DNA of 64,000 nucleotides from Thiocapsa marina 5811 (lineage in GTDB: Bacteria > Pseudomonadota > Gammaproteobacteria > Chromatiales > Chromatiaceae): positions 62,001 through 126,000 of the forward strand of contig NZ_AFWV01000008.1 of assembly GCF_000223985.1 (NCBI RefSeq), read 5' to 3'. The notes beneath the pieces were generated by a model that was given only the letters and a program-made list of their open reading frames with translations, was not told the origin of the DNA and did not search any database. Below, one piece after another: positions 486 through 59,899 of the stretch. The first letter of the stretch is position 1, and every line of letters begins with the position of its first letter. The position numbers and the translations under genes were made by a program.

Positions 486-2730
486 AGAATTTCATCTGAA
501 GGCCGCGGACCTTGTTGCGGAAATCGCGGGTGACCGTCTCGGCGTCTTGGTCGCTCGCGACGACCTTCGGGGTCAACACCACGACCAGCTCGGTTCTTCT
601 CGAGACCTTGGAGCGCTGCCCGAAGAGCGGTCCGGCGAACGGGAGGTTGTAGAGTCCCGGAACGCCTTGATTGCCGTCGCTTCGCTCGTTTTGGATCAGA
701 CCGCCGAGCACGACGGCTTGGTTCGAGCGCACCGCAACCGAGCTGGTGATGTTGCGCGTTGAGAACGTCGGCGAGTCGAGCGCCGAGCCACCGCTTCCGA
801 CCTCGTCGACCGTGCTCACCTCTTGCTCGATCTCCATCTGCACCAGGCCGCCCGGGGTGACCCGTGGTTTCACCGAGAGCATAACGCCCGTGGGCCGATA
901 CTCGATGGTGTTGACGACCCGATCAGTGTCCGAGAGGCCCTGCTGCTGGCTGGTCGCGATCGGAACCTCTTTGCCGACCTGAATCTTCGCCGTCTGATTG
1001 TCCAGGACCATCACGGACGGGGAGGACAGGACATTGACGAGGTTGTCCTGTGCCAAGGCGCTCAAGGTCGCACGAATGGTGTCGGGCCGACTGATGACGG
1101 CCCAGTTGAAGCCCGGGAATGTCAAACCGACGCTGTTTGCAAGCGAGTCGCCCGAGCCCAAGGTGAACTGGCTACGCTGATCCTTGGTGGCGAGTCCGAA
1201 GAGATTCCATTGGACCCCGTACCTGAGATTGCCCTCCAGGGTGATCTCCACGATCGTGGCCTCGACGAGGACCTGCAGCGGAAGGATATCCAACTGTTTG
1301 AGCGCGTCGAGGATCTTCTTGTAGTCCCTCGGGCTGGACCGGACCATCAGCGAGTTATTGGTCGCGTCGGCAACGATACTGACGGACGAGGAGAGCTCGA
1401 TCTCGCGGGAGGAGCTGCGCCGCGGTGCCGCCTGTCCGCCGACACCTCCGCCGTCCGCATCCCCGTCACCCGTCGAGCCGATGGACGAGCCGCTCAATCC
1501 CGGTGCGACGCCGCCCACGGACGACGAACGCTGCGATGCCTCCCCGCCGAAGAGTTGGGAGAGGGTATCGGCGAGGTTCTCGGCGTCGCCGTGGCGCACC
1601 CGATAGACGAATAGACGCTCGGCGGCATCGCCGGTCGCCTCGGCCATGTCGAGGCGTTCGATCCAGTTACTGGCTTGTTGGAGATAACTGGCTTGGGGAG
1701 ACACCACGAGCACCGCGTTGGCGCTCTCCACCGGAACGAATCTGAAGACACCCTTGAGCGGATTGCTGCCTTCGTCGCCCAACAGCGTCTGAAGCTGGGT
1801 GACCACCTCGTTGGCCTTGGCGTACTCGAGTGAGAAGAAACCGACCGAGAGTCCGGCCATCCAATCGACGTCGAAGACGCGAATGGTGTCGAGTAGATTG
1901 CCCATGTCTGGACTGGTGCCGGCGATGACCACCAGATTACGGAGGTTGTCGACACGAATCACGCTCCCCTCGGGCGCCAAAGGCTGGAGGATGTTGCTCA
2001 TCTCCTCCGCACCGATGTACTGCAGGGGTACGACTTGGACGCTGTAGCCTTCCGGGAGGGCGCGGCCCGACTCGCCGAGCTGGGGTACGACGCGACCCTG
2101 AACGGCATTCGCCAACGGGACCACCTCGTAGGTACCGCCCGAGTAGACGATGGCCGCATTGTTCATGCGCAGGAGGGTTTCGAGGGTCGGTATCAAGTGG
2201 TCGCGCCGCAGCGGGCGCCCGGTCTGCAGCGAGGTGACACCCTGCACCGCGGGATGCAGGACATAGTTCACCTGCAGCAGGTCGCCGAGGATGACCTTGA
2301 CGACCTCGCGGATGTCCGTCCCGTCGAAGTTCAGCGTGACGTCGCCGGGGGTGGTGTCGACGCTGGGCGGCGAAATCTCGCGAACGAAGGTCCCGGTCCC
2401 GCGCTGGAGTGACTCGACGGCCGGACCGGGCGCGTCATCTCCGGCCAGGGCGATGGAGGTTGCGTCGGAGCCGCGCGCCGGTGTGGAGCCGCGCGCTCCG
2501 CCCTGCAGCGCGCGGGTTCCGTCCTCGCCCATGTCGTCGACCCGTACGGTCGGATCCCAGTAGGCGCGCTCGCAGGCCGACGAGACGACGGCAAGCATCA
2601 GAACGATCGCGAGTCGCTGCACGTTGCGCACGGATGGACGGGCGCCGCGACGGCACTTTGGATCCAAAATGGCCTCGTTCGAGTCAGCTCGGCTCGGCAG
2701 GCCGACGAAATCAGAAATCCTGGGGATCAT
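484..2730 (-). CDS. gspD: Type II secretion secretin GspD (XpsD-like lipoprotein)
   Basis: Outer-membrane secretin that forms the exit channel of the type II secretion system (748 aa, usual size 650-780). After a short N-tail a hydrophobic segment ends VVSSAC with Cys53, which suggests a lipoprotein signal, as in Xanthomonas XpsD. Next come an N0-type domain (from about residue 130, NFDGTDIREVV), N1-N3 repeats with a Ser/Gly-rich insert near residues 400-440, and the secretin core (VEATIVEITLEGNLRYG through PFAGPLFGQ and ELVVVLTPKVV). The start overlaps the stop of the preceding gene as ATGA, which fixes the first Met and indicates translational coupling. It is the last gene of the gsp operon. 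Confidence 0.95.
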   Translation of the reverse strand: MIPRISDFVGLPSRADSNEAILDPKCRRGARPSVRNVQRLAIVLMLAVVSSACERAYWDPTVRVDDMGEDGTRALQGGARGSTPARGSDATSIALAGDDAPGPAVESLQRGTGTFVREISPPSVDTTPGDVTLNFDGTDIREVVKVILGDLLQVNYVLHPAVQGVTSLQTGRPLRRDHLIPTLETLLRMNNAAIVYSGGTYEVVPLANAVQGRVVPQLGESGRALPEGYSVQVVPLQYIGAEEMSNILQPLAPEGSVIRVDNLRNLVVIAGTSPDMGNLLDTIRVFDVDWMAGLSVGFFSLEYAKANEVVTQLQTLLGDEGSNPLKGVFRFVPVESANAVLVVSPQASYLQQASNWIERLDMAEATGDAAERLFVYRVRHGDAENLADTLSQLFGGEASQRSSSVGGVAPGLSGSSIGSTGDGDADGGGVGGQAAPRRSSSREIELSSSVSIVADATNNSLMVRSSPRDYKKILDALKQLDILPLQVLVEATIVEITLEGNLRYGVQWNLFGLATKDQRSQFTLGSGDSLANSVGLTFPGFNWAVISRPDTIRATLSALAQDNLVNVLSSPSVMVLDNQTAKIQVGKEVPIATSQQQGLSDTDRVVNTIEYRPTGVMLSVKPRVTPGGLVQMEIEQEVSTVDEVGSGGSALDSPTFSTRNITSSVAVRSNQAVVLGGLIQNERSDGNQGVPGLYNLPFAGPLFGQRSKVSRRTELVVVLTPKVVASDQDAETVTRDFRNKVRGLQMKF

Positions 2731-3302
2731 TGTTGAGCGGGATCCGCGGGTTGAAGCACCCGGGGCGGGCGCCGCGGGACCGGCATCGGGGCAGCCGGGC
2801 TTGGTGTTTTTCCATAGTCCCGCAATATTAGCGCATCCTGCTCGCCTTGTCGCTCGAGCAAGACGCGATCCGGGAGGATCGTCTGAACCGACCAGCCCTC
2901 GAGATCATCGCCGATGCGCAGACGCCTGAGCTTCGGCTCGTTCGGATCCTGTATCCAGGCCGAGACCAGAGTCGGGGTGATGATGACGGCACTCAGGTTC
3001 ATACCGTCGAGCGATGTTGCGACATCCGGTTCGGGGCTCGTCTGCGCCTCCGGATCCACGTCCTCTTCCGGTCGACGCTCGGGACGAAACAGCGGTCGGT
3101 CGGTCACGCTCGCGTAGGCGTCTTTCGGATCCTGAGGCGGCAATTGCGCTGCCGCGTCCAGCTCGCTCCCGACGGGTGTATTCGGGCCCGCCGAAGAACC
3201 CGCATCGAGGCCGACGCTCGACGGACCGGGCGGCCAATCCTTCCACTGCAAGACGAGCATCGACACCAAGGCGAGCAGCACGAATCCCGGGAGCCATTTC
3301 AT
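2727..3302 (-). CDS. gspN: Type II secretion protein N (XpsN/GspC-like HR-domain protein)
   Basis: Inner-membrane linker of 191 aa: one N-terminal membrane segment (residues 5-20), a Pro/acidic-rich periplasmic linker to about residue 95, then a GspC homology-region fold (about 98-162, NLSAVIITPTLVSAWIQ to VLLERQGEQDALIL). In the xps-type order it sits between gspM and gspD and does the job of GspC, contacting the secretin N0 domain. No PDZ or coiled-coil domain follows, so it is a short form. No other gspC is present in the operon. Both ends overlap neighbours by 4 bp (ATGA). Confidence 0.8.
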   Translation of the reverse strand: MKWLPGFVLLALVSMLVLQWKDWPPGPSSVGLDAGSSAGPNTPVGSELDAAAQLPPQDPKDAYASVTDRPLFRPERRPEEDVDPEAQTSPEPDVATSLDGMNLSAVIITPTLVSAWIQDPNEPKLRRLRIGDDLEGWSVQTILPDRVLLERQGEQDALILRDYGKTPSPAAPMPVPRRPPRVLQPADPAQQ

Positions 3303-3916
3303 CGTGCGTCACCTCCGAGCGTGAATCCGAAGATGTCGAGCCTCACCGTCAATTCGCCGGCCGGGTTGGCCGGCGGTCGGCGGATCATGCGGCCTCGCGG
3401 GGCCGACGCGGGCTGTTGCGGACGCGCGGAGGAGCGTACCGAGACCTGATCGACGAACAGGAAAGGCCGCGCTTGCTCGATGTCGTAGAGGACATCGAGG
3501 AGGGTCTCGGTCGATCCTTGGATCTGCGTACGCACACGGACCCGCGGCGGGCTCTCATCGGGAGGCCCGGGCAAGATTTGAGTACTGATCAGGCGACCGC
3601 TCGCCGCAGTGACGATGTCCTGAACCTGCCGCTGAAGCTCGGCACCCGCCAAGGCCGCTGTCGGTGCATCGAAATAAAACGCCTTGAAGCTCTCGTTGGC
3701 ACGGACCCTCTCGAGCTCGGCTCTTAGCTCGGGCAGGGTCCGAATGAGCCTCCGATAACGCACGAGTTGATCCTCGCTGTCGGCAATCCGGGCTGAAAGC
3801 GCGCCCATCTCGCTGGACCAGGCGATCGCCAGTCCGCCGATCACGAAAAGGGGCAGCGACAAGAGCAGGGTCCAAGCCAGTAGGCAGACGATCTTAGGGC
3901 TCGATGGGGCCTTCAT
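3299..3916 (-). CDS. gspM: Type II secretion protein GspM
   Basis: Bitopic inner-membrane platform protein (205 aa): cytoplasmic N-terminus, membrane helix at about residues 9-33, a coiled-coil-like segment (ALSARIADSEDQLVRYRRL) and a C-terminal ferredoxin-like region. The frame stays open upstream to 4114, but the start at 3916 (MKAPSSPK) is chosen because it overlaps the gspL stop as ATGA and places the membrane helix near the N-terminus. GspM pairs with GspL in the assembly platform. Confidence 0.85.
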   Translation of the reverse strand: MKAPSSPKIVCLLAWTLLLSLPLFVIGGLAIAWSSEMGALSARIADSEDQLVRYRRLIRTLPELRAELERVRANESFKAFYFDAPTAALAGAELQRQVQDIVTAASGRLISTQILPGPPDESPPRVRVRTQIQGSTETLLDVLYDIEQARPFLFVDQVSVRSSARPQQPASAPRGRMIRRPPANPAGELTVRLDIFGFTLGGDAR

Positions 3917-6735: not shown

Positions 6736-6870
6736 CCCTCGCGGGGCCGGCCTTGCACGCGCCCTGGACCAAGACGCGGCCAAGACGGCGATTCGACGGG
6801 GCTCCGTCCTGCCCGGAAAACCAGGAGAACGCGTGCCGACACATCCAAAATCAGGACGCTGCACACTCCC

Positions 6871-6953
6871 GAACCGCGTCTGATGCGACGATCGTTGACT
6901 CATTCGAGGCCGATCCCGGTTGAAAAGGCTCCACGCCATGACGGACGCGGCTC
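6871..6953. repeat. Foldback repeat element copy 1 (gspI-gspJ junction)
   Basis: An 83-bp segment bounded by GAACCGCGTC and GACGCGGCTC, inverted with one mismatch in ten. Read on the minus strand it begins at the gspI stop codon (TGAGCCGCGTCC). It belongs to the same family as the copies at 9634, 9749, 59274 and 59379. Confidence 0.6.
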
Positions 6954-7371
6954 AGAACCGTTCGCCCAGGCGTAGGGTCGAAAGCGTCAGGCTGCGGACC
7001 TGGCTCCCGTCCTGCCAAAGCGAGGTCGCGTTCACACGGTAGGGCGTGGCCGGCGGCTCTGCACCGAACTCCTCGCCGAGCGTGACCGGTAGGATGGTCA
7101 CCTCCCAGGCAATGCCACCCTCTGGGTCGCCCGAAACGGAGCCTTCCTCCAAGGGGATCGCGGTGCCCACGGCATTGAGCTTGGATTCGGCCAACGACGC
7201 GGCACGGCTGTATTGGGAGGACACCAGGGTGGTCCGCGACGCTTGGGAAAAGATCTGCATCAGGACGCCGAGCGACACGGAGAGGATGGCGAAGGCAACC
7301 AAGACCTCAAGAAGCGAAAAGCCGGTCTGAGGTCGTCTTCGGTGTCGCAAGATCTTCAACGCGCGCTCCAT
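6952..7371 (-). CDS. gspI: Type II secretion minor pseudopilin GspI
   Basis: Minor pseudopilin of 139 aa, part of the GspH-I-J-K tip complex. The basic leader is 17 residues (ends RRRPQTG) and is followed by FSLLEVLVAFAILSVSLGVLM with Glu at +5. The start codon lies inside the end of gspH (16 bp overlap), which implies coupled translation. A 216-bp spacer holding a repeat element separates it from the next gene. Confidence 0.9.
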   Translation of the reverse strand: MERALKILRHRRRPQTGFSLLEVLVAFAILSVSLGVLMQIFSQASRTTLVSSQYSRAASLAESKLNAVGTAIPLEEGSVSGDPEGGIAWEVTILPVTLGEEFGAEPPATPYRVNATSLWQDGSQVRSLTLSTLRLGERF

Positions 7372-8412: not shown

Positions 8413-9621
8413 TCAGAACACCAGCTCGTTGGCCCCGAGAATGGCCATCAGGATCGAGATGATGATGCCCGCAACGACGACGCCGAGCCCGATGATGAGA
8501 ATCGGCTCGAGCAGCGTCAGCATACTCTGGACACTGTTGCGGGTCTCGCGATCGTAGATGCTCGCCACCTTGGCAAGCATGGCGTCGAGACTGCCGGACT
8601 CTTCGCCGACGCGGATCATTTGCAGCGCGAGATCCGGCAACACCTCGAGACGTGCCAAGGGTCCGGCGAGACCGCGGCCGTGCTTGAGGTCGTCGCCGGC
8701 CTCGTTGAGCAGCCCCGCGAGCTTGCGATTGGAGACCACCTCTTTGGCAAGCGTCAGGGCGCTGAGCAGGGGCAGACCGTTTTTCAGGAGCGTCGCCAGC
8801 GTGTGGCAGAGTCGGGCCGTCTCCATCTTCCAGATCAGATCGCCGAACAGCGGCACGCCAAGCACCTTATTGTCGAATCGATCGCGGACGATAGGATCCT
8901 GAAACCAGCGTTCCAACACCACCGCGATCAAGGCGATGACGACCAACATGGCCCACCAATAGTTGCGGAAGAGATCGCCGGTCGCGACCACGATCCGGGT
9001 CGGCAACGGCAGGGCCTCGCCCATGTCATCGAAGAGCACCGTAAACTGGGGCACCACGAAGACCAACAACATGATCACCGACAAGCCCGCGACCACCAAG
9101 AGGATGGAGGGATAGACCAGCGCGGAGGTGATCGTCTGGCGCAACTCCGCCACGCGCTCGAGATAATCGGCGAGTCGATTCAGGACCTGGTCCAGCGCGC
9201 CGCTGGCCTCGCCCGCGCGCACCATATTGACGTAGAGCCGGGGGAATTGCCCGTCCTGTAGGTCAAGCGCGCTGGAAAAGGTCGCGCCGCCGCGCACGCG
9301 ATCCTGCAGATCCGACAAGACCTGGATCAGGTGGTCCTCCTCGGTGAGCTCCACCAGGATCTGCAGCGATCGATCCAGGGTCATTCCGGCCTCGAGGAGC
9401 GTCGCCAGCTCGCGGGTCAGGATGCCGATCTCCTTTTGGTTGATGCGCCGACGTCGTGTCCGCACGAAGCGAGCGCGCAGCCCTGCCGAGGAGCGGGTCT
9501 CGATCGGGATCAATCCCTCCGACTGGAGCTGGCGAACCAGCGCGGCCTCGTCGACCGCCTCCTGCTCGCCCTCGACCGACTCTCCGTCGAGCTTGACCGC
9601 TTTGTAGAAATATTTCGGCAC
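8413..9621 (-). CDS. gspF: Type II secretion inner-membrane platform protein GspF
   Basis: Polytopic platform protein (402 aa) with two cytoplasmic helical domains and three membrane segments. The start is set at GTG 9621 (VPKYFYKAVKLDGE, the conserved GspF opening). A good ribosome site, AGAGGA, lies six bases upstream of it, and that site directly follows repeat element copy 2. An ATG-side extension to 9690 would run through the repeat. Family motifs seen: LTRELATLLEAGMTLDRSL, ALVYPSILL and the C-terminal EPILIIGLGVVVAGIIISIL. Confidence 0.92.
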   Translation of the reverse strand: MPKYFYKAVKLDGESVEGEQEAVDEAALVRQLQSEGLIPIETRSSAGLRARFVRTRRRRINQKEIGILTRELATLLEAGMTLDRSLQILVELTEEDHLIQVLSDLQDRVRGGATFSSALDLQDGQFPRLYVNMVRAGEASGALDQVLNRLADYLERVAELRQTITSALVYPSILLVVAGLSVIMLLVFVVPQFTVLFDDMGEALPLPTRIVVATGDLFRNYWWAMLVVIALIAVVLERWFQDPIVRDRFDNKVLGVPLFGDLIWKMETARLCHTLATLLKNGLPLLSALTLAKEVVSNRKLAGLLNEAGDDLKHGRGLAGPLARLEVLPDLALQMIRVGEESGSLDAMLAKVASIYDRETRNSVQSMLTLLEPILIIGLGVVVAGIIISILMAILGANELVF

Positions 9622-9633
9622 TTCAGTCCTCTG

Positions 9634-9720
9634 TTGAACCGCGTCCGGCGCAATGGGCACCGGGTGCGTACTGTATCGAGGTCGAAACACTCATTCGACC
9701 TAGTCGGGGACGCGGTTCAA
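9634..9720. repeat. Foldback repeat element copy 2 (gspE-gspF junction, next to gspF)
   Basis: An 87-bp segment with perfect 13-bp terminal inverted repeats, TTGAACCGCGTCC and GGACGCGGTTCAA. An inner hairpin is also visible (GGTCGAA and TTCGACC). On the minus strand its end runs straight into the gspF ribosome binding site. Confidence 0.7.
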
Positions 9721-9748
9721 GTGTTTGAAGATCGACTCGTGTTTTTCC

Positions 9749-9833
9749 TGAGCCGCGTCCAGCTCGGAGCCTTCGGGTGCAACCGAGCGTTGCTTCGAGA
9801 CACGACATAAGGAGTCGCTCGGGACGCGGCTCA
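9749..9833. repeat. Foldback repeat element copy 3 (gspE-gspF junction, at gspE stop)
   Basis: An 85-bp segment with perfect 12-bp terminal inverted repeats, TGAGCCGCGTCC and GGACGCGGCTCA. On the minus strand the first three bases are the gspE stop codon. It lies 28 bp from copy 2, so nearly the whole intergenic gap is repeat. Confidence 0.7.
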
Positions 9834-11711
9834 GTCGACGCTCGCCTCTTCGCCTGACTCGGCGACACGCAGCACCTCCTCGATCGTCGTGCGGCCGTCG
9901 AGCGCCTTTCGCAGGCCGTCCAGGTACATGGTTTCCATACCCTCGGCGACGGCGATGCGACGGATCTCGGTCGCGGTCGCATGATTCAAAACGGCCTTGC
10001 GGACCTGATCCGTCATCAGCAGAACCTCGGTAATGACCAGACGGCCGCGATAGCCGGTTCCGTTGCACGCATCGCAGCCGACGGCTCGATGCAGCTCGAC
10101 ATCCTCCGGCGCCGCTCCGAGGGCGGCAAAACGCGCCGCCAGCTCCGGGATCGCCGGGTAGGACTCCCGACAATGCGGGCAGAGCTTGCGCACCAGGCGC
10201 TGGGCGAGGATCCCGTTGATCGTGGAGGTCAGCAGATAGTCCTCCACACCCATCTCGAGCAGGCGTGTCACGCCGCTGGCGGCGTCGTTGGTATGGAGGG
10301 TCGAGAGCACGACATGCCCGGTGAGAGCCGACTGGACGGCGATTCGGGCGGTCTCGAGGTCGCGCATCTCGCCGACCATGATGACGTCTGGATCTTGCCG
10401 CACGATGGCGCGCAGGGCGCTGGCGAAGGTCATGCCGATCGCGCTCTTGACCTGGATCTGGTTGATCCCGGCCAACTGGTACTCCACGGGATCCTCGACC
10501 GTGATGATCTTACGCTCCTCGGTGTTCATCCGGCTGAGCGCAGTGTATAGGGTTGTGCTCTTACCTGAGCCGGTCGGTCCGGTCACCAGCAGGATGCCGT
10601 AAGGTTTCTCGAGGATCAGCCTGAGGCGCTCGCGCGGCGAGCCGTCGAACCCGAGTGCGTCCAGGTCGAAGCGCACGCTCTCCTTGTCGAGCAGACGCAT
10701 GACGACGCTCTCGCCGAACATGGTCGGAACGGTGGAGACACGCAGGTCCAGCTCCCGTCCCTGGATTCGGATCGGGATACGCCCGTCTTGAGGCAGGCGC
10801 CGCTCGGCGATATTGAGCTTGGCCATGATCTTGACGCGCGAGATCACCGCCGCAGTTGACCGCACCGGCGGGGCATCGACCTCTTTGAGGATCCCGTCGA
10901 CGCGGTAACGCACCTTGAGCTCGTCGGAGAAGGGCTCGATGTGGATGTCCGATGCACGCGACTCGAGGGCCTTTTGAATGAGCTGGTTGACCATCCGGAT
11001 GACCGGCGCCTCGCTGGCGAGGTCCTTGAGGTGCTCGATATCCTCCTCGTCGAAATCGCCGAGCGCCCCCTCGACGCTCTCCGGCGCCTCTTCGACCTTC
11101 TCGTAGAGGCGCTCGAGGGCCAGCTCGATCTCGCTCGGCAACCCCACAAGCGCCTTCACGGGTTTGCCCGCCGCCATCTGCATGGCCTCGACCGCGAACC
11201 GATCGATCGGATGGGCGAACGCGACTTGGATGCTGTCCCCATCCTCGGACAAGGGGAGCACCTTCGCGTCCTTGAGAAACCGCAGACTGAAGAGATCCTC
11301 GCGCAACGGCTCGGACGGGAAGGTGCTCGCGTCGGTCAGGGGAAGCTCGAGTACGTCGGACATCGCCTGTGCCATGTCGCGCTCGGAGATGAGTCCCAAG
11401 CGGACAAGCATCGGCAGGAGCGGATCGCCCGCCTCGTCGGCGAGACGCCGCGCCCGCGCGAGATCGCCCGGCGAGAGTTTCCCCGACGCGTGCAGGTGGG
11501 CGACGACCCGCCCCTCCGGCGGGGGTTCCGGTTGCAGGTTCGACGGGGCCTCCGAGGCGCCGGCCGTGTCGGACTCCGCGGAAGCGGTGGCCGAGGCAAG
11601 AGGGGAGCCGGGGCGGGCAGCGAGCATGTGCAACCCGGAAGACAGCTCGTCGAGGTCGTCGCGCCTCGCGCTGATGCTCGGTGCCTCGTCGAGGACGGCG
11701 TCGTCATGCAT
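9831..11711 (-). CDS. gspE: Type II secretion ATPase GspE
   Basis: Cytoplasmic hexameric ATPase (626 aa) that drives pseudopilus assembly through GspL/GspF. After a Ser/Ala/Pro-rich N-tail it has the N1/N2 domains (from about residue 70), then the ATPase core: Walker A GPTGSGKSTTL near residue 380, the Asp-box region ITVEDPVEYQL, a Walker B region (PDVIMVGEMRD) and the tetracysteine zinc site (CPHC ... CDAC). Met at 11711 is chosen because GGAG lies eight bases upstream; the ATG at 11717 abuts it. The start lies within 8 bp of, and overlaps, the end of the sugar dehydratase gene upstream. Confidence 0.95.
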   Translation of the reverse strand: MHDDAVLDEAPSISARRDDLDELSSGLHMLAARPGSPLASATASAESDTAGASEAPSNLQPEPPPEGRVVAHLHASGKLSPGDLARARRLADEAGDPLLPMLVRLGLISERDMAQAMSDVLELPLTDASTFPSEPLREDLFSLRFLKDAKVLPLSEDGDSIQVAFAHPIDRFAVEAMQMAAGKPVKALVGLPSEIELALERLYEKVEEAPESVEGALGDFDEEDIEHLKDLASEAPVIRMVNQLIQKALESRASDIHIEPFSDELKVRYRVDGILKEVDAPPVRSTAAVISRVKIMAKLNIAERRLPQDGRIPIRIQGRELDLRVSTVPTMFGESVVMRLLDKESVRFDLDALGFDGSPRERLRLILEKPYGILLVTGPTGSGKSTTLYTALSRMNTEERKIITVEDPVEYQLAGINQIQVKSAIGMTFASALRAIVRQDPDVIMVGEMRDLETARIAVQSALTGHVVLSTLHTNDAASGVTRLLEMGVEDYLLTSTINGILAQRLVRKLCPHCRESYPAIPELAARFAALGAAPEDVELHRAVGCDACNGTGYRGRLVITEVLLMTDQVRKAVLNHATATEIRRIAVAEGMETMYLDGLRKALDGRTTIEEVLRVAESGEEASVD

Positions 11712-16756: not shown

Positions 16757-18148
16757 CTAGCATCGCATGTTTTCGCTGTTTTCGTCAGGCGGATCCGAGG
16801 TCGATTCGGACACCGGGGCGCAGGCGACGGCGGCGAAAGGCGGTCTTCGTTGCGGTTTGATCGGTTCGGTGCCGTCGCGTTCCCGCAGCCGGTAAAGATC
16901 GCTTTGAACCTCGTCCGTGCCCTCATCCGAGAGGGATCCTTGCCGTTGTGCGCCGCCGCACCAGTCGGACGGGTTCTGCGGCTTGCCGTTGTGGCGAATG
17001 GCAAAATAGAGCACGGGCTCGGCACGACCTCCGCTGTCGCCGCTCAGCGCGATCACTTCGCCTGTCGCCACCCACTCGCCGGTCTCCTTCAGAAGCGCCT
17101 CGTTGTGTCCGTAGATCGACATATAGCCTTCGCCGTGGTCGATCACCATGAGCAATCCGAATCCGCGCATCCAGTCGGCGTGAATCACCCGTCCGTCATG
17201 CACCGCGCGCACCTCCTCGCCTTGTCGGGCCGCCAAGAGCACGCCGTCCCAGCGCAGCTCGGAGTCGGGCTTAGGCGTTCCGAACTCGGCAAGGACCTCG
17301 CCGTGCAGCAGCGGCCATGTCAAGCGTCCTCGACGTTCGGGAAAGGGATCCCGCCGAATGTCGAGCTCGGCTCGGATCTGAGCCCGCTGTCGCAGATGCT
17401 CCACCAAGAGGCGCAGCGCCTCGGCATCCCGCTCCAGAACCTCGAGATTTTCCGTGCGACCGGCAATGCTCGCTTCCAATCGGGCCAGGACTGCGGCACG
17501 TTCCTCTCGCGCGGCCTCCAAGCGAACCCGCGCCGCCTCTTGGCGTCGTGCCAGCTCGATGAGGTGTTCCGCCTCGCGCTCGGCGTCGTGGGCCAAGCGG
17601 GTGAGGCGTTCGACACGCGTCTGGATGGCGATGATTCGACGCAGTTGTTCTCGGTTCAGGTACGCGAAATAGGAAAGAATGCGACTCGCCTGCGCGGTAT
17701 CTTCCTGATTCAGGAGAAGGCGTAAGCGGTCGGCCCGACCCATGACGTAAGCGGTACGAACCAAGTCCGCCCAAAGCGCGAGCTCCTTCTCGAGCGCGGC
17801 GTGCTCCTCGAGATGACGCACCCGCAATGCCTCCGCGACACGGGTTTGCTCGGCAACGGCACGCGCCAACTCTCTGCCGCCGACGGCCGCCTCGGCGACC
17901 TCACGTTCCCGCACCTCGAGCTCCGCGATCAAGGCTCGCCGGTCCGCGTGCTGCTCGGTGAGCTCCCGACCGACCGAATCGACCTGTCGCTCGATCTCCT
18001 GAAGGTCCTTCGCGCGCGTCTCCAAGGTCTCGTCGGACGCGGTCTCCACCGCAGCCGCCGGCGTCGTCACCAAGGCGCACGCCGTCAACAGCCAAGCCAA
18101 GCGACGCCCGATCCCATCGAGCGCTCGGTCAAGCCTGTCATCCTGCAT
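16757..18148 (-). CDS. envC: EnvC-like murein hydrolase activator (M23/LytM domain)
   Basis: Periplasmic protein of 463 aa. The start MQDDRLDR gives a signal peptide (RRLAWLLTACALVTTPAAA). A long coiled coil (about residues 30-260, rich in Arg/Glu/Ala) leads to a degenerate LytM domain (about 285-400). In that domain the metal-ligand positions of active M23 enzymes are not all present: VIDHGEGYMSIYGHN keeps parts, while DGVLLAARQGEEVRAVHDG replaces the usual HxGxD opening. This fits an activator of division amidases rather than an enzyme. It has an unusual Pro/Arg-rich tail after residue 405. Upstream, 280 bp separate it from the divergent regulator gene. Confidence 0.87.
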   Translation of the reverse strand: MQDDRLDRALDGIGRRLAWLLTACALVTTPAAAVETASDETLETRAKDLQEIERQVDSVGRELTEQHADRRALIAELEVREREVAEAAVGGRELARAVAEQTRVAEALRVRHLEEHAALEKELALWADLVRTAYVMGRADRLRLLLNQEDTAQASRILSYFAYLNREQLRRIIAIQTRVERLTRLAHDAEREAEHLIELARRQEAARVRLEAAREERAAVLARLEASIAGRTENLEVLERDAEALRLLVEHLRQRAQIRAELDIRRDPFPERRGRLTWPLLHGEVLAEFGTPKPDSELRWDGVLLAARQGEEVRAVHDGRVIHADWMRGFGLLMVIDHGEGYMSIYGHNEALLKETGEWVATGEVIALSGDSGGRAEPVLYFAIRHNGKPQNPSDWCGGAQRQGSLSDEGTDEVQSDLYRLRERDGTEPIKPQRRPPFAAVACAPVSESTSDPPDENSENMRC

Positions 18149-46121: not shown

Positions 46122-47088
46122 GATCGTAGAGTGCGAGGTGCGTCAGGCAGCGTTGGAGATGGCCGTCGCCTCGCCCGGGCGCCTCCTCGAGCCCCGGCAG
46201 CCGCAAGCCGAATCGGATTTGGGCCTCGGCTGCGTCGAGGACCTGGCGCGTCAGCAGACTGATCCTGGTTTCCGGATCCGTCGCGGTCAGTTCGGTCCAA
46301 TCGATCCAGACCTCCTGTCCTTGATCGCCTCCGAATTGCTTCACGACGAGCCCGCGCTCCCGCGCGTGCGCCTTCCAGTCGATCTGCCGGGGTGAATCCC
46401 CTTCGCGATAGGGCCGCGGACCCAGATAATCCTCCATCCCCTCGGGACCTTGCCGACGACGTGGCTCGGTGTCGCCCGCAGCGGATCCGGGCTCCGGCGC
46501 GGCCTGCGTCGGCTTTGGATAGACCAAGGTCGTCGCATCGGTCTGCACATAACACCAGGCGCGAAAGAGGTGCAGCGGGTAGCGCGTCTCGACCGTCACC
46601 TCCTCGAGCGTCGACAGACCGCGTCGCAGTGTCGGTCGAGCGATGCGGATCGTCCCGCAGTCCCCGCCAGGGATCGCGATCGCCTGATGTGGCGTCTCGT
46701 GCGCCGGAATCCCGACGTCGTAGCGCGCCCGCTTCCCCTCGGTGCCGACAACAACCTCGAAGCTCGCATCGTCCCCGGCGAAGACCGGTGGCCCTCCGCG
46801 GGCCTGAACCGAAAGCCCGAGCAAGTTGAACCAGGTGTGGTGCATGGCCACGAGCGCTACGGAGGCAAGAAAAAAGGTGAAGAGCAGCCCCAGGTTGTTC
46901 TGATAATTGAGCGAACCGAGCAGCATGACGAAGAGCACCGCCCCGAAACGCAGCCCGTTCCCCGTCGGCAGGATGTAGATTTGACGACGCCCGACCCGCG
47001 CAACCCCGTCACCTCCACGCGCAACCCGACGAAACAAACCGCTGAGCCGTCTGCCCCTAAAGCGCGTCCAGTCGACCATGTCTTCCAT
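46084..47088 (-). CDS. DUF58 domain-containing protein
   Basis: A 334-aa protein with two membrane helices (about residues 45-90, RFGAVLFVMLLGSLNYQNNLG onward) and a C-terminal DUF58 region containing GMEDYLGPRPYREGDSPRQIDWKAHAR, the family signature. The VWA-like fold is thought to work with MoxR ATPases. A Pro/Arg-rich linker precedes the signature. The Met at 47079 is an alternative start. It is the middle gene of the moxR-DUF58-tgpA operon. Confidence 0.9.
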   Translation of the reverse strand: MEDMVDWTRFRGRRLSGLFRRVARGGDGVARVGRRQIYILPTGNGLRFGAVLFVMLLGSLNYQNNLGLLFTFFLASVALVAMHHTWFNLLGLSVQARGGPPVFAGDDASFEVVVGTEGKRARYDVGIPAHETPHQAIAIPGGDCGTIRIARPTLRRGLSTLEEVTVETRYPLHLFRAWCYVQTDATTLVYPKPTQAAPEPGSAAGDTEPRRRQGPEGMEDYLGPRPYREGDSPRQIDWKAHARERGLVVKQFGGDQGQEVWIDWTELTATDPETRISLLTRQVLDAAEAQIRFGLRLPGLEEAPGRGDGHLQRCLTHLALYDHAQANDPLQRTA

Positions 47089-47107
47089 TCACCCCGAAAA
47101 TCCTCGC

Positions 47108-48061
47108 TTAAGCGAGCGCGACACGGTCCAGGATCTCACTCATCACCGCATCCTCGTCGAGCCGTCCCCCGTACTCCGACGCAGCCAATCGATGCACGAC
47201 GCAGGAGGGCAGAATCGCCTGGATATCCTCCGGAATCACATAGTCACGTTCCTCGAGCAGGGCCCATGCCTTCGCCGCACGCAAAATCCCGAGTCCCGCA
47301 CGCGGCGAGAGTCCGTGAAGAAACCGCTCGCTGCTGCGCGTGAGCGCAAGGATCGCATGGACGTACTCGATGATGGCGGGCGCCGCATGGACCGCGACGA
47401 CCTGCTGCTGCAACGCCGTCAACTGCTCGCCGGTGAGGGCCGGCTGCTGGCGTGCGATCATGCTGCGCCGATCCTCGCCGGCCAGCAGGGCCTTCTCCTG
47501 CTCGGCCGCCGGATAGCCGAGCCGGATCCGCATCAGGAACCGATCCAACTGGGACTCGGGCAACGGAAAGGTGCCGACCTGAAAAAGCGGGTTTTGGGTC
47601 GCGATCACGAAGAAGGGCTCGGGCAAGGGTCTGGTCTCACCCTCTACTGTCACCTGGCGTTCCTCCATCGCTTCCAGGAGCGCGCTTTGGGCCTTGGGTG
47701 TGGCGCGGTTGATCTCGTCCGCGAGCACCACCTGCGAGAAAACGGGACCGGGATGGAAGCGAAACGACTCGGCGGCCCGGTCGTAGACCGACACCCCGAT
47801 CACGTCCGCGGGCAGAAGATCGCTGGTGAACTGGATTCGGGCGTACTCGAGGCCGAGCAGACGTGCGAGCAGGTGCGCCAGGGTAGTCTTGCCCACACCG
47901 GGCACATCCTCGATCAGGAGATGGCCGCGTGCCATCAGACAGGCCAAGGCGAGCCGAAGCTCGCGGTCCTTGCCGAGGATCACGGCCCGTGCGGCCACGA
48001 GCACGCGCTCGGCGAGACTGGCCGAGCTGTTCATCCCATGCCGGCTCAGAAAATTTGTCAT
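47108..48061 (-). CDS. MoxR-family AAA+ ATPase
   Basis: A 317-aa AAA+ chaperone-like ATPase. Walker A is EDVPGVGKTTLAHLLA, Walker B VVLADEINRATPK, sensor 1 FFVIATQNPL, and sensor 2 lies in the C-terminal lid (GLSPRAGLGILRAAKAWAL). MoxR proteins are linked to maturation of VWA-domain partners, here the DUF58 protein 19 bp downstream. The gene is divergent from mnmG with 62 bp between. Confidence 0.93.
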   Translation of the reverse strand: MTNFLSRHGMNSSASLAERVLVAARAVILGKDRELRLALACLMARGHLLIEDVPGVGKTTLAHLLARLLGLEYARIQFTSDLLPADVIGVSVYDRAAESFRFHPGPVFSQVVLADEINRATPKAQSALLEAMEERQVTVEGETRPLPEPFFVIATQNPLFQVGTFPLPESQLDRFLMRIRLGYPAAEQEKALLAGEDRRSMIARQQPALTGEQLTALQQQVVAVHAAPAIIEYVHAILALTRSSERFLHGLSPRAGLGILRAAKAWALLEERDYVIPEDIQAILPSCVVHRLAASEYGGRLDEDAVMSEILDRVALA

Positions 48062-59378: not shown

Positions 59379-59464
59379 TTGAACCGCGTCGGCACAACGC
59401 GATTGAAGTCCGCCTCGGGCGGATTCCGCGACAACGTCCTGTGTGACAACAGGGCGCGGTTCAA
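59379..59464. repeat. Foldback repeat element copy 5 (before atpC)
   Basis: An 86-bp segment with terminal inverted repeats TTGAACCGCG and CGCGGTTCAA and an inner hairpin (TCCGCC-TCG-GGCGGA). It lies 17 bp after copy 4. Its end runs into the atpC ribosome site, as copy 2 does for gspF. Confidence 0.65.
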
Positions 59465-59476
59465 CAGGGGTGCACT

Positions 59477-59899
59477 ATGGCGATGACAATTCACGTCGAT
59501 ATCGTAAGCGCCGAAGGCGCGATTCATTCGGGTCAGGCGGCCATGGTGTATGCGACCGCCGAGTTGGGCGAGGTCGGTATCGCACCCCGGCATACCGCCT
59601 TTATCAGCCGGCTGAAGCCCGGTGACGTGCGGGTCGAGAACGAGCACGGAGAGCAGGAGCACTTCTATGTGTCCGGCGGAATGCTCGAGGTTCAGCCGCA
59701 TGTCGTGACCGTGCTGGCCGACACGGCTATCCGCGCGCGTGATCTCGATGAGGCCGCGGCGCTCGACGCCAAACGCCGTGCCGAGGAGGCGTTGGCCGGT
59801 CACACCGCTCAGTTCGAATACGCCAAGGCGCAGGCCGAGCTGGCCGAGGCGATCGCACAGCTGCGGGCGATCGAGAAGCTTCGCAAGATGAAGGGCTGA
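59477..59899 (+). CDS. atpC: ATP synthase F1 subunit epsilon
   Basis: Inhibitory rotor subunit (140 aa). N-terminal beta-sandwich (IHVDIVSAEGAIHSGQA, GVGIAPRHT-like GEVGIAPRHTAF) and C-terminal helical hairpin (RRAEEALAGHTAQFEYAKAQ). The start is set by CAGGGG upstream. The 199-bp gap to atpD is almost fully occupied by two repeat elements. Confidence 0.96.
   Translation: MAMTIHVDIVSAEGAIHSGQAAMVYATAELGEVGIAPRHTAFISRLKPGDVRVENEHGEQEHFYVSGGMLEVQPHVVTVLADTAIRARDLDEAAALDAKRRAEEALAGHTAQFEYAKAQAELAEAIAQLRAIEKLRKMKG

Follow-up and report, generated by a model that had tools for sequence, protein, structure and literature searches.

The foldback pair between gspE and gspF in Thiocapsa marina: very probably an old copy of a two-hairpin, TA-duplicating MITE

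Between gspE and gspF in Thiocapsa marina 5811, the entire intergenic gap is occupied by two foldback segments. What is this pair, and why does it fit so exactly between the two genes? The initial annotation of the window (the whole 64-kb stretch of DNA analysed here) had described segments of 87 and 85 bp with perfect 13- and 12-bp terminal inverted repeats, spanning the gap from the gspE stop codon to the gspF ribosome site, and re-pairing of the arms reproduced this description. Both genes are on the minus strand. On that strand, arm pairing and a covariance model of the family (R1, built from 50 copies) define one two-hairpin unit at 9634-9833 that fills the gap. The hairpin that comes first in transcript order lies at 9749-9833 (minus strand, 63.9 bits with R1), its arm 9749-9760, TGAGCCGCGTCC, pairing with 9822-9833 at 12 of 12 positions. 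The second lies at 9634-9720 (minus strand, 64.8 bits), its arm 9634-9646, TTGAACCGCGTCC, pairing with 9708-9720 at 13 of 13 positions, and a 28-bp spacer (9721-9748) separates the two. The unit opens with TGA (9833-9831), the stop codon of gspE, as placed by the sequence, the open reading frame and the relatives. The opposite end of the unit stands one base ahead of the gspF ribosome site AGAGGA (9632-9627), which is followed by a GTG start at 9621-9619, assigned from the reading frame and relatives. When the transcribed strand was folded, each hairpin surpassed 200 of 200 dinucleotide shuffles (z scores of -4.8 and -5.2). A search of Rfam restricted to 9500-9950 gave no family at the gathering score and two weak, chance-level matches, both off the hairpins.

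To see if the pair is unique, its arms were sought in the rest of the genome, as the initial annotation had suggested, and further copies were found far above chance. The 5.59-Mb genome has 10 matches to the arm pair TGARCCGCGTCC-N45..70-GGACGCGGYTCA and 65 to an 8-base core pair, with none for the reversed control in either case; the foldbacks of the window are therefore not a chance occurrence. The 10-mer AACCGCGTCC has 378 occurrences on both strands and its reverse 47. Sampled loci of this genome contained 278 hairpins, counted after removal of locus overlaps, against 12 for the reversed-pattern control, in which overlaps were left in. Model R1 gave at least 150 matches in the genome (150 of the 150 candidates scored). 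In five orthologous stretches chosen for gspE, 22 units were found, or 3 to 5 per 64 kb, which by extrapolation corresponds to several hundred units per genome.

These copies share a body plan in which the hairpins come in facing pairs. Hairpins of 84 nt (n=109), 85 nt (n=99) and 86 nt (n=39) account for 247 of the 278; 205 of the 278 are paired at distances below 45 bp, and, of the 108 gaps between neighbours closer than 150 bp, 89 measure 22-23 bp. When 49 copies of a more uniform class were aligned with their flanks, a second, facing hairpin stood about 22 bp further on in nearly all rows, and was missing by eye in three (L052, L069, L071). The unit is thus about 193 bp long (193-200), with two hairpins mostly of 84-86 bp that carry 12-13-bp arms and face each other across about 22 bp, so that one arm is present four times. 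The majority sequence reads TTAAACCGCGTCC-N60-GGACGCGGTTTAA, an AT-rich spacer, then TTAAACCGCGCC-N60-GGCGCGGTTTAA, and the unit end is TAAACCGCG. The window pair is one such unit with diverged interiors, and its 28-bp spacer is above the usual length and not AT-rich. The initial annotation was therefore right in proposing an undescribed small non-autonomous element, while the two segments that it had taken as separate elements are halves of a single one. Among 40 complete units of this genome, the terminal inverted repeats open and close with TA...TA at 39 left and 36 right ends, the arms being part of the search pattern. At arm position 2, TG...CA replaces TA...TA in many copies, with both arms changed in 42 hairpins and one arm in 22; such paired changes could reflect subfamily descent, selection or palindrome-templated repair.

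The family is patchily distributed in Chromatiaceae. An exact 24-base pattern searched among 84,980 species genomes gave 25 stretches, all from Thiocapsa (four record sets); since these copies (alignment A1, kin loci L020-L044) were picked by exact arms, their arm conservation is by construction. At E ≤1e-3, model R1 matched 18 of 74 relatives, comprising 10 of the 11 genomes of the genus (none in G006), 7 other genomes of the family and, outside the family, one genome with a single match (E 9e-4). The pair ACCGCGYCC-N52..66-GGRCGCGGT, searched in the 210 genomes of an order-level search, all of the same family, was present in 30. Within the genus it reached 32 to 121 copies in 8 of 11 genomes, and 0, 0 and 1 in the remaining three. 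Elsewhere it was found 9 to 21 times in three of the seven g66 genomes, 24 times in G028 and 61 times in G042; a further 16 genomes had 1 to 4 copies each, and in some of these the control was equal or higher. For this pair, G001 and G010 accounted for 119 and 121 exact occurrences. The double unit, spacer included, was also observed in G042, G081, G076 and G028, whose labels place them in three other genera. A search of plasmids and phages with the 194-nt majority sequence gave no match. Of note, G028 has an interior type of its own (with ...CACTTTGTGTCTGGC...) that is repeated several times there. Near-identical units with identical 12-nt flanks were seen in G042 (L302) and G081 (L305), genomes labelled as two different genera, and represent either an orthologous insertion or a recent transfer.

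The ends of the units and their empty counterparts in relatives indicate how the element inserts. Among the 40 complete units, a pyrimidine precedes the left TA in 38 and a purine follows the right end in 39, and the full Y-TA...TA-R context is present in 37. Of all TA steps, YTAR accounts for 20.6% of the non-genic and 3.7% of the genic ones. The initial annotation had also suggested a comparison with empty sites, and relatives without the insert were found at gspE-gspF and at other sites. The joined flanks of 12 of the 40 units, picked by hand (L048 and L006 kept out), were used as queries, and only matches running across the join were considered, which left 20 stretches for 9 units. Exactly one TA stood at the join for the L134 unit in G004 and G003, the L128 unit in G003 and G010, and the L126 unit in G010 and G004. 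The TA is thus duplicated relative to the empty site in three units, as seen in six empty orthologues. TA was absent from the gap-free empty orthologues of the L013, L051 and L132 units, and from one of three empty orthologues of the L126 unit (G002). Imperfect empty sites were seen for the L015 unit (gaps of 0-2 nt), the L068 unit (poor match) and the L134 unit in G006 (gapped), and the L010 unit has 44 extra bases at the site in strain KS1. At the empty site of the L015 unit in KS1 (L227), an arm-like GGACCGCGTCC was noticed, either a possible remnant or a chance match. G002 lacks one unit of G010, at a site compatible with the TA rule, and one single hairpin of G010 is missing at the same place in five other genomes.

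At the gspE-gspF junction itself, 11 genomes of the genus could be compared: five carry the double unit, three a reduced or single form and three none. The double unit is present in T. marina 5811, G010, KS1 (G008), G002 and G003, although in the last of these the first hairpin is decayed. In G004 the second hairpin survives along with remnants of the first, and G007 has one hairpin. G001 has one hybrid hairpin, in which the outer arm beside gspE continues into the second hairpin's interior, a form that recombination between arms would be expected to produce. No element is found in G005, G009 and G006. The G006 junction reads TGACCAGGGACT, and filled sites read CCGAGGACT after the unit; because the ends of the gspE unit are TG...CA and this empty relative has diverged, a TA duplication is unreadable here. 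Other GC-rich inverted repeats were seen by eye in the element-free gaps of G005 (L083) and G009 (L084).

These junctions also bear on the other reading raised by the initial annotation, an intergenic mRNA-structure family, in which the hairpins would be a conserved host element kept to regulate or protect operon mRNAs, dispersal being secondary. The folds are very stable, copies stand directly after stops, and, across the five genomes with the double unit, identity in the two hairpins is higher for the arms (90% and 95%) than for the interiors (82% and 78%), the flanking coding ends being at 93%. Matched changes at arm positions across copies would also fit a selected structure, but they could also stem from subfamily descent or palindrome-templated repair. 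Covariation at gspE-gspF gave this reading no support: among eight orthologous sequences, a sample of low power, four of five measures were not above shuffles, and the fifth, the share of paired cells, was 88.0% versus 86.5% and was reached by 31 of 500 shuffles. Moreover, the copy is decayed or lost in G003, G004, G001 and G007 and absent in three genomes. We consider a primary role in host mRNA structure improbable. The pair is instead, very probably, one old copy of a non-autonomous, TA-duplicating MITE composed of two facing hairpins and inserted at YTAR.

Many copies share with gspE the coincidence of element edge and stop codon. Genes were called with a codon-usage caller trained on the window, not taken from annotation, and units were kept if they had at least 400 nt of flank on both sides, which gave 160 units from this genome and 62 from kin loci. 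In 75 of the 160, the first three bases of the element are the in-frame stop of the neighbouring gene; the same state was found in 34 of the 62 kin units, a set partly chosen by arm pattern and including orthologues. The stop edges of the first set number 79 (TAA 59, TGA 18, TAG 2). Both ends of the unit serve in this way: among the double units, hairpin 1 contributed the stop through its outer end 25 times and hairpin 2 17 times, and the orientation of 14 was unread. Around the unit edge, 79 stops are at offset 0 and one falls at +1 to +30 inside the element, so that neighbouring genes were not cut at random. Eight empty orthologues of five edge-stop units could be aligned at this place, and every one of them carries its stop at precisely the same codon (4 TAG, 4 TGA), after the conserved last stretch of the protein; the protein end is unchanged in these five units. 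Rows for the second unit of the L134 locus ('L134 left'), which had been mapped to the wrong junction, were dropped from this comparison, and the G006 stretch L232 gave no alignment at the L134 stop.

Part of this association could be passive, with the element inserting at random YTAR sites, genic insertions being purged and insertions at stops surviving best, without special adaptation of the ends. Genic sites make up 163 of 400 and 252 of 480 YTAR sites and yet the genic units number only 9 of the 160, a clear sign that insertions have been removed by selection. Outside units, 42 of 237 and 61 of 228 non-genic YTAR sites already coincide with stops. The observed 75 of 160 is considerably higher than either of these fractions (p 2e-17 and 4e-8, treating the null fraction as fixed and the units as independent), and stops exceed intergenic sites beyond what the target alone predicts, though survival could fill the difference and may explain much of the stop excess. 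On balance we lean towards this passive account. That YTAR targeting and TA|A ends form an evolved safe-harbour strategy, by docking at stop codons, is a more tentative idea, which we put forward with some doubt. If it were true, hundreds of copies per genome would sit directly on gene 3' ends, and the paired hairpins would be ready-made 3'-UTR and operon-junction structures.

For the preferred MITE reading, the following course of events can be proposed. A transposase acting in trans, most likely a TA-duplicating DDE enzyme such as those of IS630/Tc1-mariner elements, would insert the unit at YTAR and duplicate the TA. Because the element ends begin TA|A, insertion within TAA or TAG, in either orientation, would leave TAA, so that the stop is remade at the same codon and the protein stays intact; the ribosome site downstream would also be retained. 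At gspE, the insertion into the stop codon, presumably at an original TA, would go back to an ancestor shared by most of the genus, and the ends of the unit would later have changed from TA...TA to TG...CA. The fit from stop codon to ribosome site would then follow from insertion at the TA of a stop codon. The hairpins may also have an effect on the gspE-gspF mRNA.

TA duplication and the foldback body place the family with TA-target MITEs, and this in turn suggests an IS630/Tc1-mariner-type enzyme as the candidate for mobilisation. Arms at both ends of a transposase locus were sought among IS630-type (PF13358) loci and found in none of 42 (covering 30 of the 41 matches from the genus and all 12 from four other genomes), nor in any of the 27 PF01609 (DDE_Tnp_1) loci of G000 and G010 (27 of 27; G042 has no PF01609 match), nor in any of 30 PF01797 (Y1-type) loci examined out of 85 matches in the genus. 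When up to two mismatches are allowed, chance arm matches are common in the transposase loci scanned. Several candidates for a larger or autonomous element were set aside. L345 of G010 reads as an insertion inside a unit: a stretch at about 1253-3382 with a DDE_Tnp_1 match has apparently landed in hairpin 2 and split it. The long-spaced arm pairs L293, L294 and L296 of the T. marina genome are separate hairpins, and that of L295 consists of two lone arms 2.8 kb apart, with no hairpin. A copy about 1.3 kb from a Y1-type transposase gene, on one side, was noticed in six genomes of the genus (L185, L189, L191, L195, L201, L203); by position, these apparently represent one orthologous place.

Such genes bring to mind REP/REPIN-like families, in which two inverted palindromes are moved as single-stranded DNA by a RAYT, a Y1 tyrosine transposase. 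The inward-facing, extragenic dimer is reminiscent of them, and Y1-type genes are present in all 11 genomes of the genus, with the copy at about 1.3 kb in six. GTAG and CGTC REPs are extragenic palindromes, often in dimers, and the CGTC type is, like the present family, without a known transposase (PMC3733652). That description gives them short stems with a tetranucleotide tag (GTAG or CGTC), whereas the Thiocapsa hairpins measure 84-86 nt with 12-13-bp arms, and TA is duplicated relative to empty sites. Furthermore, none of the 30 Y1 loci examined was flanked by arms, and Y1 genes are also present in G006, which has no copy by model R1. We regard mobilisation of this kind as very unlikely.

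The Thiocapsa element is a new family with a distinct two-hairpin body plan, within a known kind of element, the TA-target MITE. The closest parallel in kind is RUP of Streptococcus pneumoniae, a 107-bp TA-target MITE ascribed to IS630-Spn1, whose ends match a resident IS630 (PMC2229807). RUP and the Thiocapsa unit are both about 100-200 bp long and have terminal inverted repeats, TA insertion and high copy number; like RUP, the Thiocapsa unit, at about 193 bp, presumably encodes no protein. They differ in that the Thiocapsa unit has two hairpins and four arms, with no matching IS among the loci scanned. Correia/NEMIS and ERIC elements likewise have TA at their termini, target duplication and foldback transcripts (PMC2229807), and differ in hosts and in arm lengths, tabulated there as 24 and 7 bp; this comparison is by description, not by sequence. 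BOX of S. pneumoniae, a modular repeat of variable length, also supplies stop codons to neighbouring genes, in 36 of 58 overlapping CDSs (PMC3049150); in Thiocapsa, unlike BOX in that account, the TA|A end takes the place of the original stop codon, judging from empty orthologues. The QMITEs of Coxiella burnetii are MITEs with TA termini and stem-loop transcripts (PMC5896051). One described insertion at the 3' end of a gene extends the protein, whereas the protein end is unchanged in the five Thiocapsa units checked. In the open-licence literature, we found no Thiocapsa MITE or Chromatiaceae repeat of this kind and, by exact phrase, no element described as inserting into or restoring a stop codon, both being weak evidence of absence; a two-hairpin body, or empty sites showing an element end at the original stop, was likewise not found there.

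Small repeats are usually filed as merely intergenic; among the copies examined here, close to half supply a host gene with its stop codon, and empty orthologues preserve the state that preceded insertion. Docking at stops would give a plain molecular reason for the high copy number of a TA-target element in a GC-rich, gene-dense genome. On the MITE reading, a transposon would be the source of the stop codon and 3' hairpins in many Thiocapsa genes, including gspE and gspI. The family is also a convenient system in which to study how operon expression responds to paired hairpins placed directly behind a stop codon.

The 64-kb window holds further copies. Weak matches at 16903-16979, within a called gene, and at 47058-47130 (E 0.007; four arm mismatches) are probably chance. 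A single-hairpin copy at 59380-59463 on the plus strand (R1, E 7e-5) lies upstream of a gene starting at 59477 and has an orthologous copy in G004. Another, at 6870-6954 on the minus strand (R1, E 2e-9), occupies the gspI-gspJ junction, where TGA at 6954-6952 is the gspI stop. Within this one gsp cluster, gspE (9831-9833) and gspI (6952-6954) both end on an element edge.
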